From the NCBI GenBank assembly GCA_002392655.1, contig DGHK01000064.1:21877-45047 (forward strand): a DNA stretch of 23,171 bases. The letters run 5' to 3'. Position numbers and translations under genes: made by a program. The stretch comes from Lachnospiraceae bacterium UBA3850. Its GTDB lineage: Bacteria > Bacillota > Clostridia > Lachnospirales > Lachnospiraceae. Below the pieces are notes generated by a model. The model had not been told where the DNA came from and made no database searches. It was given only the letters and a program-made list of their open reading frames with translations. Positions 10,533 through 13,214 of the stretch are shown one piece after another (within the stretch, counting starts at the first letter, position 1; every line of letters starts with the position of its first letter).

Positions 10533-12311
10533 TTAATTACAATATCCGCTACTATCAAACCAGTAACTCGTTCCATCTATCCACAGATACTGATTTTTCG
10601 GGTACCATCCATTATCGCTATAGTACCATCCTTTACCGTCTAAATGCCAAGCTCCATTTACTGAATTCGGATCCATGGCACCATCTGAACCAAGCCAGCA
10701 ACCATCTCGATATTCTCCATAGTCCATATATCCATCAGATGTAAAGTAATACCAGCTACCATCTATCTTGAGCCACTGACTCGAAGGCCACCAACCAGAT
10801 TTATCCTCTACCCACCAGCCTAAGGCATTAGACATCCAGGAAAGTGAATAAGTCGAATCCCATATACCTGAATCACTAAACCAGCATCCATTATAATACT
10901 CATTTGAAGCCATATACCCATCTGGTTTAAAATAATACCAATTTCTATCTATTTTCAACCATTTATCATGTGGATACCAGCCCGACTCATCTTCAAACCA
11001 CCAGCCATTTTCATTACCTTTCCAAGAACCCTTATATTGATATGTCTGATTACCATCCTTATCATACCAATAACCATTTATCCATTCATCACTTATTTTT
11101 TCTTTAGAACTATTTTCACCGTTCTTATTATCTTCGTCTCCTTCCTGCTTCCCTTTAGACATATCCCGATCAGTAACTAAAAAAGTAGAATTATGATCTA
11201 TGTAAAAGCAACACCATTTATCAACTGAATCTATTTGCATATCACATTCTGCATTCTCTTCAAGTATATATTCATCGCCAACAACATGATATAGATTCAA
11301 TTTATAACTATCTCCATACCATAAATAATTGCTCTTTAGCTTTACTTCAGTTCTGCAAGGCAATTTTCCATTTTCAGGAAATATTACATCTATATCATCC
11401 ATCTTTCCGTCACTATCATTATCTACTGGATAAGCATTCACAAATCCACATATATCCTTTGTTTCCCCCTTTATATCCTTCCCATAGAATATCCAACGAT
11501 ATGATTCAAAATAAACAATCAATGCGATATCCTTTCCAGCTATATAATCAAAGACCTCCTTAGGTATTACTCTGTCACTATTTATATGCATGGATGTATC
11601 ATCATCTTCTTCATATCCATAGTATATTCCAACTTTTTTTCCTTCAGGTACAGTTTTTACTTTTTCTACTAAGTCTGGATCTCCAACACTTATTTTTTTA
11701 TAAAATTCAGTATCATCTATTATTTCAAATGAAGGCGATTCACATACAACTTCATCTCCATTCATTAATTTATCACCAACTGTAACATCCGATTCTTTAA
11801 GCACTTTTCCTGTTTGTTCAAAATTGTACCATTTTTTATAATGTCTTCCTTCTATCCCTCTTCCTTCATAATCAAAATCTATTCCATAGCTGAGGCTTAG
11901 TGTTTCTTCCCCTTTTTTTAACTCAACATCGATACTTCCAATCATGTATTCGCCTATATCCCAGCTTTGATCAAATGGCACATCTACAGATACTCTTCCA
12001 TCATGAATCTCCTCTCCATTTGCGAGCCATTGTCCCCACATACAAAATGACGGATCATATATATCTGGATCCATTCGAACAAAATATATACCCACTTCCT
12101 CAACCTTATATTCTCCAGCATCGAGCTCAACATATGCAGTGATTCGCCCAGGTAAATGTGTACTCTTGTCAGATAAACTAACACTCTTTATCACATTTGG
12201 ACTCTTTTCAGCATATACCCTGCCTGTTAACACCCCGAATACATTCATCCATACAATAAAACATGTCAATAACACCGCTAACACTTTTCTTGTTCGTACC
12301 AATTTTTTCAT
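10533..12311 (-). CDS. Secreted cell-wall-binding repeat protein, c-di-GMP riboswitch-controlled
   Basis: Predicted surface protein of 592 aa with no recognised catalytic domain. It has a signal peptide (MKKLVRTRKVL, hydrophobic stretch, VYA at about 35). The unrecognised, acidic, beta-rich-looking region runs from about 37 to 390 and includes an EF-hand-like loop DNDSDGKMDDID. A charged linker follows, then aromatic CWB repeats from about 405 to the C-terminus (GWWFEDESGWYP, WLKIDRNWYYF, GYM units). The open frame runs back to 12428 through the riboswitch, but SD AAGGGG with a 7-nt spacer and the signal peptide fix the ATG at 12311. The first two-thirds are visibly more AT-rich than the neighbouring operons, suggesting separate ancestry. 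Expression should depend on read-through of the terminator at 12349-12375. Adhesion or matrix function is plausible for a c-di-GMP-controlled surface protein but is inference. Confidence 0.9.
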   Translation of the reverse strand: MKKLVRTRKVLAVLLTCFIVWMNVFGVLTGRVYAEKSPNVIKSVSLSDKSTHLPGRITAYVELDAGEYKVEEVGIYFVRMDPDIYDPSFCMWGQWLANGEEIHDGRVSVDVPFDQSWDIGEYMIGSIDVELKKGEETLSLSYGIDFDYEGRGIEGRHYKKWYNFEQTGKVLKESDVTVGDKLMNGDEVVCESPSFEIIDDTEFYKKISVGDPDLVEKVKTVPEGKKVGIYYGYEEDDDTSMHINSDRVIPKEVFDYIAGKDIALIVYFESYRWIFYGKDIKGETKDICGFVNAYPVDNDSDGKMDDIDVIFPENGKLPCRTEVKLKSNYLWYGDSYKLNLYHVVGDEYILEENAECDMQIDSVDKWCCFYIDHNSTFLVTDRDMSKGKQEGDEDNKNGENSSKEKISDEWINGYWYDKDGNQTYQYKGSWKGNENGWWFEDESGWYPHDKWLKIDRNWYYFKPDGYMASNEYYNGCWFSDSGIWDSTYSLSWMSNALGWWVEDKSGWWPSSQWLKIDGSWYYFTSDGYMDYGEYRDGCWLGSDGAMDPNSVNGAWHLDGKGWYYSDNGWYPKNQYLWIDGTSYWFDSSGYCN

Positions 12312-12348
12312 TAAAAATCCCCTTCTCTCTCCAATACATTTTTGAAAC

Positions 12349-12375
12349 AAAAAAGCGCCACTCCACGTGACGCTT
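12349..12375 (-). terminator. Riboswitch expression-platform terminator
   Basis: On the minus strand AAGCGTCAC (12375-12367), loop GTGGA, GTGGCGCTT (12361-12353), running straight into a T-run (12354-12349): a 9-bp stem with one wobble pair. It lies 50 nt after the aptamer and 37 nt before the start codon of the CWB gene, so it would stop transcription in the leader. Its 5' arm can instead pair with the aptamer core. Confidence 0.88.
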
Positions 12376-12424
12376 CTCATATAATAATCATATACTACTT
12401 CTAAAACTCCCTCGATTATCATTT

Positions 12425-12494
12425 GCAACCGGCTACCATAAATACTACTCCTTAGGCCCTTGGCTTTGCGTCACATGATTTCCCATGCTTTGCC
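12425..12494 (-). ncRNA. Cyclic di-GMP-I riboswitch (GEMM-I) aptamer
   Basis: The minus strand matches the GEMM-I core in order. GGCAAAG opens it, followed by a P2 stem capped by a GAAA tetraloop, the invariant GACGCAAAGCC, then GGCCTAAGG, and P3 closing with TATGG and GCCGGTTGC. CCTAAG (12451-12456) and TATGG (12436-12440) form the standard 11-nt tetraloop receptor that docks the GAAA loop. The base before CAAA that contacts the ligand (G20 in the Vibrio Vc2 aptamer) is G, as in c-di-GMP sensors, not A as in the cGAMP-sensing variants. It lies in the leader of the CWB gene at 10533-12311. Confidence 0.93.
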
Positions 12495-12506
12495 TTTATA
12501 TGCTAT

Positions 12507-12535
12507 ATATTACCATATCAATCTCAATACATAAA
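12507..12535 (-). promoter_or_regulatory. Possible promoter of the riboswitch transcript
   Basis: Minus strand -10 TAATAT (12507-12512), 17-bp spacer, weak -35 TTTATG (12530-12535). The start point would be near 12500, a few bases before the aptamer, which fits. The -35 is poor, so another promoter is possible. Confidence 0.4.
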
Positions 12536-12586
12536 CTATTATTTTGGTTATTTTCAACATTCACACAATCATCAAAGACTTGTCCC

Positions 12587-12615
12587 TTGACGATAGTACC
12601 ATTATATAGTACTAT
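12587..12615 (+). promoter_or_regulatory. hicAB promoter with overlapping inverted repeat
   Basis: -35 TTGACG (12587-12592), 17-bp spacer, -10 TACTAT (12610-12615). An inverted repeat ATAGTAC (12593-12599)/GTACTAT (12609-12615) covers the spacer and the -10, as expected for autorepression by the HicB antitoxin. The predicted start point is at or within a base of the hicA GTG (12622). The 310-bp gap 12312-12621 thus holds the riboswitch, its terminator and this divergent promoter. Confidence 0.7.
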
Positions 12616-12621
12616 TAAGTC

Positions 12622-12876
12622 GTGAATAATAAAGCAATAAAAACGTACAATAACATATATAAAAATCCTATCCAATCAGATATTAGTTGGAAGGATATAG
12701 AGAAGCTGTTTTTGGCATTAGGCGCAACTATTTCCGAAGGAAATGGTTCCAGAGTTCGTGTAATGTTAAATGGTGCAATGGCGGTATTCCATCGTCCGCA
12801 CCCTGAAGGCAATACAGACAAAGGTGCAATAAAGTCAGTTAGAAAGTTTTTAGAAAATGCAGGAGTACAATTATGA
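12622..12876 (+). CDS. hicA: HicA-family toxin (mRNA interferase)
   Basis: Small toxin of a type II toxin-antitoxin pair; HicA proteins cut mRNA through a dsRBD-like fold. The 84 aa include SDISWKDIEKLFLALGA, EGNGSRVRV, VFHRPHPEG and GAIKSVRKFLENAGV. This fits the HicA subfamily with an N-terminal extension and the HRPHP motif, where the classical GSHH is GSR. It starts with GTG, has no convincing SD, and the predicted transcription start coincides with that codon, so it may be leaderless. It overlaps hicB by 4 nt (ATGA). Toxin-before-antitoxin order is normal for hicAB. It is one of only two plus-strand genes in the window. Confidence 0.88.
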   Translation: MNNKAIKTYNNIYKNPIQSDISWKDIEKLFLALGATISEGNGSRVRVMLNGAMAVFHRPHPEGNTDKGAIKSVRKFLENAGVQL

Positions 12877-13214
12877 ACACAATGATTTACAAAGGTTTTG
12901 TTGGTAAAATTGAATATGATGATGACTTCAAAATCTTTACCGGTTCAGTCATTAACACTCAAACAGTCATTACATTTCAGGGCACTTCCGTCGATGAACT
13001 TCAAAAAGAGTTTCACCTATCTGTTGATGACTATCTTGAATGGTGTGAAGAGGAAGGAATAGCCCCCGAAAAACCATGTTCCGGTAAATTCAATGTAAGA
13101 TTATCCCCTTCTACTCATCAAAAAGCTATTAATAGTGCCAAGTCTCTTGGCATATCTCTCAATAAATTTGTAGAGAAAGCCATCGAAGATGAATTTGATC
13201 TTATGGAAGGATAA
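12873..13214 (+). CDS. hicB: HicB-family antitoxin
   Basis: Antitoxin partner of hicA, 113 aa. The N-terminal degenerate RNase H-like domain (KGFVGKIEYDDDFKIFTGSV ... VDELQKEFHLSVDDYLEWCEEEG) is the HicA-binding part of this family. A C-terminal ribbon-helix-helix (FNVRLSPSTHQKAINSAKSLGISLNKFVEKAI) is the DNA-binding part. The start ATG overlaps the hicA stop; the SD AGGAG is 7 nt upstream, inside hicA. It probably represses the pair through the inverted repeat at 12593-12615. A bidirectional terminator begins a few bases after its stop. Confidence 0.92.
   Translation: MNTMIYKGFVGKIEYDDDFKIFTGSVINTQTVITFQGTSVDELQKEFHLSVDDYLEWCEEEGIAPEKPCSGKFNVRLSPSTHQKAINSAKSLGISLNKFVEKAIEDEFDLMEG

Follow-up and report, generated by a model that had tools for sequence, protein, structure and literature searches.

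The stretch of DNA analysed here, the window, comprises 23,171 nucleotides from Lachnospiraceae bacterium UBA3850, whose genome assembly has 65 contigs totalling 2.69 Mb and a contamination of 5.4%. Its minus strand, on which the features described below lie unless stated otherwise, carries a c-di-GMP-I (GEMM-I) riboswitch aptamer at 12504-12421, followed by a terminator hairpin and a gene encoding a 592-aa protein. The aptamer matches Rfam model RF01051 over its whole length (model positions 1-87); the score of 66 bits exceeds the gathering threshold of 35, and the E value for a search sequence of 401 bases is 6.7e-13. This is the sole Rfam match within the window at gathering thresholds, and when 12300-12700 was searched with E values up to 1, RF01051 alone was reported, two weaker overlapping matches of the same clan being omitted. 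A preliminary description of the sequence had placed an aptamer of known class at 12425-12494, and the covariance model agrees, its match containing that interval in full.

The riboswitch leader and its gene

The hallmarks of the class are present in the sequence and in the Rfam alignment. They include a GGCAAA 5' strand (12494-12489), a P1b hairpin (GCAUGG-GAAA-UCAUGU, 12488-12473) with a GNRA tetraloop at 12482-12479, the conserved core GACGC (12472-12468), and a receptor-like P2 (12456-12436). P1b, placed by the alignment, also forms in folded partial transcripts; the name is presumably that of the Vc2 aptamer, and the same hairpin was called P2 in the preliminary description. P2 was read from the sequence, and its strands CCUAAG (12456-12451) and UAUGG (12440-12436) resemble what we take to be the 11-nt GAAA-tetraloop receptor. 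The first G of GGC, which we assume to be the base that selects between c-di-GMP and cGAMP (G20 in Vc2 and G11 in Cd1; the position is treated in PMC9262584), is present in the window aptamer.

Downstream of the aptamer, a spacer hairpin spanning 12422-12381 is predicted in both states of the leader, with AUGAUAAUC (12422-12414) pairing with GAUUAUUAU (12389-12381). It is followed by an intrinsic terminator hairpin with a U tract at 12378-12349, which was identified by the criteria of our own script together with folding; a consensus scan of 12200-12800 gave no terminator-like site. The terminator stem pairs AAGCGUCAC (12375-12367) with GUGGCGCUU (12361-12353), includes a U-G wobble and encloses the loop GUGGA, and the U tract occupies 12354-12349. 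Part of the 5' arm and three loop bases make up the putative antiterminator partner GCGUCACGUG (12373-12364). A probable ribosome binding site, GAAGGGG (12325-12319), lies apart from the terminator, and the open reading frame of the regulated gene runs from an ATG at 12311 to 10533. Unusual stability of the leader's own fold was not seen (z -1.66).

The 592-aa protein carries C-terminal cell-wall/choline-binding repeats (Pfam PF01473 and PF19127) and starts with a hydrophobic stretch that, judged by eye, resembles a signal peptide, while its N-terminal region gave no Pfam match. When residues 1-400 were compared with 5.8 billion proteins (5395 candidates scored), the protein itself and one weak match only were recovered, the latter with 29% identity over 48% of the stretch and a precomputed PF00395 domain. 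In a separate search of 60 relatives, the matches listed from other genomes begin at residue 352 at the earliest. Upstream of the aptamer, a possible, weak extended -10 promoter can be read from the sequence at 12535-12507 (TTTATG, 17 nt, TGG-TAATAT); a promoter scan gave a different minus-strand site (12527-12500), and its sites were no more numerous than in shuffles. A HicA/HicB toxin-antitoxin pair (PF07927, PF05534) is encoded on the plus strand at 12622-13214, divergent from the riboswitch leader.

Predicted pairing of the terminator arm with the aptamer core

The switching segment CAUGUGACGC (12477-12468), which consists of P1b 3' strand bases and the conserved GACGC, can form ten uninterrupted pairs, one of them G-U, with GCGUCACGUG (12373-12364). 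Both ten-mers and their continuous pairing are as the preliminary description had reported them, and an eleventh pair is possible between U12478 and G12363 (U-G). Length alone was rejected as a basis for significance, as a run of at least ten pairs is common when G-U is unrestricted: dinucleotide shuffling of the 75 nt that follow gave one in 1509 of 5000 cases. When no more than one G-U was allowed, a ten-pair run arose anywhere in 29 of 3000 shuffles and across the core in 6 of 3000. A core-spanning helix of equal or greater stability was reached in 3 of 3000, and in 1 of 3000 when the first 60 nt alone were shuffled. A stable core-spanning helix is thus rare, and the significance of the match comes from its stability and position rather than from length by itself. 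The pairing probabilities obtained for the window in this shuffle analysis are consistent with the folding of partial transcripts.

Partial transcripts were folded without ligand, in an energy model with no terms for the ligand, for tertiary docking or for the kinetics of the polymerase. In the ligand-free predicted fold, three bases of the core GACGC are unpaired and two lie within a two-pair helix, and P1b persists until the core complement emerges. At transcript end 12369 the antiterminator has a probability of 0.95 with P1b still at 0.997, which suggests that the core acts as a toehold. P1b has fallen to 0.001 at end 12363, the antiterminator stands at 0.99 at 12357, and the terminator reaches 0.94 at end 12354. 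The predicted capture contributes about -1.8 kcal/mol once the core complement alone has emerged, and about -6 kcal/mol after six further bases. Three leaders from the wider set described below (L027, L069 and L150) behave similarly, with -0.6 to -1.1 and then -5.0 to -5.8 kcal/mol, whereas capture by the end of the loop is predicted to be weak in L044, L163 and L168 (-1.4, -0.3 and -0.7 kcal/mol, respectively).

At full length, the predicted fold has -37.0 kcal/mol versus -33.8 kcal/mol with the antiterminator forced. In the complete RNA the terminator is therefore the more stable state, by about 3 kcal/mol, so that the switch must be kinetic rather than an equilibrium choice. By computation, the pairings of the aptamer and terminator segments exclude each other and the terminator is compatible with the folded aptamer, the two being non-overlapping and both present in the minimum-energy structure. 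The mutually exclusive switch proposed in the preliminary description thus stands as far as pairing is concerned and is refined in being kinetic, given where the equilibrium lies.

It is probable, in our view, that the window holds a strand-exchange transcriptional OFF riboswitch under kinetic control, in which the terminator arm captures the core of the aptamer. Judging from the sequence and the Rfam model, the aptamer would fold first. As the nascent terminator 5' arm emerges, its GCGUC is computed to pair with the core GACGC, and branch migration by the next arm bases would then expel the 5' strand of P1b. The resulting helix of 10-11 bp would deprive the aptamer of its core and of its GAAA tetraloop while keeping the arm from its 3' partner, and the gene would consequently be read. 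With c-di-GMP bound, as expected for the known class, the core would be buried and the tetraloop docked; the toehold would then be blocked, leaving the arm free to form the terminator and the surface-protein gene off. The kinetic decision would fall between 12369 and 12354. The ligand effect and the OFF direction in the window are inferred by analogy, the class I c-di-GMP switches of C. difficile being described as transcriptional OFF switches in the excerpted text of PMC11477304.

Recurrence and co-variation in related leaders

RF01051 has five copies in the window's genome. Genomes with a match number 45 among the 61 in a set of relatives, 53 among the 61 in a set from the window's genus (52 when the cut-off is applied) and 57 among the 117 in an order-level sample. 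Among the matches listed, 178 leaders were gathered (numbered with the prefix L), 155 of them from the window's genus. A terminator was called by the script, under criteria of our own, in 145 of the 178; 132 passed a position filter and 130 were unique, of which 118 came from the window's genus and 12 from others. Left out of these counts were G035:C105, G020:C45 and G032:C140, the leader L185, which is almost without downstream sequence, and order-level matches beyond the 66 used. Because no full-length orthologue of the regulated gene was among the matches listed in 60 relatives, co-variation was assessed on these other riboswitch leaders.

The exact core complement lies in the terminator 5' arm or loop of 15 of the 130 leaders, from 11 genomes that all belong to the window's genus, and in 0 of the 12 leaders outside it. 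At the order level, a terminator was present in 36 of 66 leaders, and L359 alone had the exact core complement, with an extension of one pair. In the window's own genome, the window leader is the only one with the exact complement, which is absent in L002-L004 and has a near copy in L005. The latter, on contig C55 (1501-1640), is likewise a c-di-GMP-I leader and shares the layout of the window leader, but its arm is one base off the core complement, at a position that would pair in both the terminator and the antiterminator.

A pattern scan of named genomes found core-capture wiring in Eubacterium sp. RGIG8032, RGIG6042 and RGIG7096 and in Lachnospiraceae bacterium UBA2864 and Lachnospiraceae bacterium AC2031, three of the five records coming from water-buffalo or sheep stomach samples. 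All five belong to the window's genus, and their core complements are those of L216, L285, L290/L291, L305 and L306. A weaker form was seen in L276 ('uncultured Lachnospira'), where the core complement lies in a terminator-like hairpin with an extension of 3, and in L269 (Erysipelotrichaceae) the extension is 0. The places L217, L262, L274 and L312 were without a core complement in a terminator-like hairpin. The scan is unspecific, with 14 of 111 pattern places aptamer-like by a rough script.

For a comparison with permuted sequences, the 15 leaders were selected on the exact five-base core complement alone, and the extension of the pairing into P1b was then scored. Into the variable P1b 3' strand, 59 of 90 possible pairs extend, compared with 40.1 (sd 4.1) after permutation, a level reached in 0 of 20000 rounds. 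With one leader per genome (11), the figures are 45 versus 28.4 (2 of 20000). In L001, L027, L069 and L150 all six P1b bases are paired and the pairing ends at the tetraloop, while L013, L032, L149 and L168 extend by two pairs only. The stem ends two pairs past the core complement in 10 of the 15 hairpins, and the next four bases are loop. At these mostly terminator-loop positions (-3 to -6), the 15 leaders have 29 contiguous pairs compared with 20.1 (243 of 20000), and one leader per genome gives 23 compared with 15.6 (278 of 20000). A match between loop bases and P1b serves no evident purpose in the terminator, and this excess is therefore the strongest indication that capture has been under selection. 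In 10 of the 15 hairpins, the 3' arm reads GUGGCG, giving the terminator a U-G where the antiterminator has a U-A, which would help the antiterminator hold.

Aligned pair by pair, 85.5% of cells are paired versus 80.5% after shuffling (0 of 500), and slid versions of the alignment give at most 55.2%. The covariation score is 0.222 versus 0.141 in shuffles, where it was reached by 2 of 500, and 12 cells are changed on both sides compared with 5.8 (11 of 500). Such changes occur at 5 of 11 pairs and include a replacement of U-A by C-G at position -1 in three leaders. Two further measures do not rise above the shuffles: pairs with changes on both sides number 5, a count reached in 82 of 500, and further pair types number 12 (99 of 500). 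Co-variation of the ten-pair helix, on which the preliminary description had made its reading depend, is therefore seen in other leaders in the extension, the loop pairing and three of the five pair measures, and does not rise above shuffles in the other two.

When the 22-nt switch segments were permuted across all 130 leaders, 17 leaders had at least eight core-spanning pairs versus 11.2 (sd 2.2) expected, with a maximum of 18 in 300 permutations. This excess is modest, probably because many leaders share a P1b 3' strand, there being 74 distinct segments among the 130, and the core-selected permutation is the more informative of the two. Predicted core capture exceeds 0.5 in 32 of 130 leaders, compared with 20.1 when arms were swapped (sd 2.5, maximum 26, 20 rounds). 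At the level of sequence and predicted pairing, core-capture wiring recurs and co-varies in related bacteria.

Capture may also take other registers. The arm fits its own aptamer better than those of other genomes, ranking in the top 5%, in 22 of 130 leaders, where 6.5 would be expected. Counted as leaders rather than evolutionary events, the strands captured in these 22 are the P1b 3' strand with the core in seven, the aptamer 3' strand in five, the P2 3' side in four, and the 5' GGCAAA strand, the P1b 5' strand and the P2 5' strand in two each. We give about even weight to the broader idea that the c-di-GMP-I aptamer has been rewired repeatedly in the genus, with terminators invading different strands, each matched to its own aptamer, and with core capture distinguished by a toehold at the ligand junction and specificity in the terminator loop. 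In a different capture register, the arms of L054, L056, L165 and L070 are complementary over 9-12 bases to the aptamer 5' strand around GGCAAAGCA, and in three of them variable flanking bases are also paired.

The aptamers themselves vary as well. Variant cores occur in L029, L102 and L105 (GACTC) and in L091 and L094 (GACAC), and by eye the 5'-strand partner changes with the end of the core (GA-TC, GT-AC), so that a small inner core helix seems to co-vary in the genus. Tandem c-di-GMP-I aptamers, with starts about 110-160 bases apart, were observed in five genomes of other genera (G100, G172, G158, G096 and G136).

Alternative readings and known systems

A terminator arm may compete with a c-di-GMP-I aptamer by another route, as the antiterminator of Cd1 uses the aptamer 3' strand (G147-C87 and C148-G86 in the excerpted text of PMC9262584), and 3'-strand matches are found in other leaders of the window's genus, e.g., L084, L091 and L202. 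That the window leader is an OFF switch of this type, its match to the core being incidental, is nevertheless very unlikely, since the arm forms its best helix with the core (-21.0; duplex calculation -18.5) and predicted pairing with downstream bases is 0.14 for the aptamer 3' strand versus 1.0 for the core. It is also very unlikely that the terminator is constitutive or otherwise tuned, through pausing, translation or an antisense RNA, and that the complementarity is a by-product of composition or copying. GCGTC does rank fifth among the commonest arm pentamers, occurring in 16 of 130 arms, and swapped arms already capture the core in about 20 of 130. Yet contiguous matching to a leader's own P1b is above permutation, even when each genome contributes a single leader, and the excess includes loop bases that are superfluous to the terminator stem. 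The least probable of these readings is an ON switch, in which c-di-GMP binding would raise read-through. Such a switch would suit leaders from other families, e.g., L011, L023 and L036, where the terminator starts inside the aptamer 3' strand in the layout of pilM; in the window, however, aptamer and terminator are separate and fold together at minimum energy, as fits an OFF switch.

The preliminary description had also supposed that the organism uses c-di-GMP, and the genome supports this: it has 26 GGDEF matches, 25 of which pass the cut-off, together with 11 for EAL (two being adjacent pieces) and the five c-di-GMP-I aptamers. No Flagellin_N match was found in the same genome. Of the other four switches, judged by eye from the translations, that of L005 lies ahead of a secreted-looking protein and that of L004 ahead of a prepilin-like one, and L002 and L003 are followed by small helix-turn-helix-like proteins. 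Likewise by eye, a signal-peptide-like or membrane-spanning start is seen in the reading frame that follows 18 of the 32 leaders for which core capture is predicted. The window's switch also indicates that a bacterium without a flagellin match uses c-di-GMP to control surface proteins. Core capture would tie ligand binding very directly to gene control: the conserved ligand-junction bases are those that the terminator arm is predicted to grab, and occupancy and toehold would thus share one site. It would also be a natural design in which the terminator loop sets specificity, and, since it recurs with co-variation, direct tests could be made of the kinetic window, of the order in which the toehold acts and of the part played by the loop bases.

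Several described systems resemble the window's switch, as far as the excerpted texts cited here describe them. Cd1, of the C. difficile flagellar operon, belongs to the same class and is a transcriptional OFF switch, and its aptamer can form alongside the terminator, both in competition with an antiterminator whose transient stability gives way to later refolding (PMC9262584). Its antiterminator, however, takes the 3' strand with the ligand-pairing C87, whereas in the window the P1b 3' strand and GACGC, in the 5' half, would be taken (PMC9262584). The GEMM switch of Candidatus Desulforudis audaxviator is of the same class and has been modelled as kinetic, its antiterminator replacing the ligand-competent fold (PMC3280964); it could conceivably share the core-capture wiring. 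The pilM cGAMP riboswitch, a GEMM-I relative, shares a related fold and strand-exchange transcriptional control, but it acts as an ON switch, with an aptamer strand forming part of the terminator (PMC9262584). Bc1 of Bacillus thuringiensis is of the c-di-GMP-I class with a terminator-based platform, yet differs in having two terminators and an added translation effect, and core capture is not described in the excerpted text (PMC11218506).

More generally, strand-exchange riboswitches have a switching sequence common to aptamer and expression platform and work by toehold invasion, as proposed for the window (PMC10907184). This sequence lies most commonly in the first helix (PMC10907184), while the window's switch would use an inner hairpin strand and the conserved junction, the latter as toehold. 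In the open-access literature searched, as far as its excerpted texts extend, no description of core capture in the c-di-GMP-I class was found, although one may exist elsewhere. Terminator-based OFF control, strand exchange from a toehold and the aptamer class itself are established, and core capture appears to be a new wiring within this known riboswitch class.
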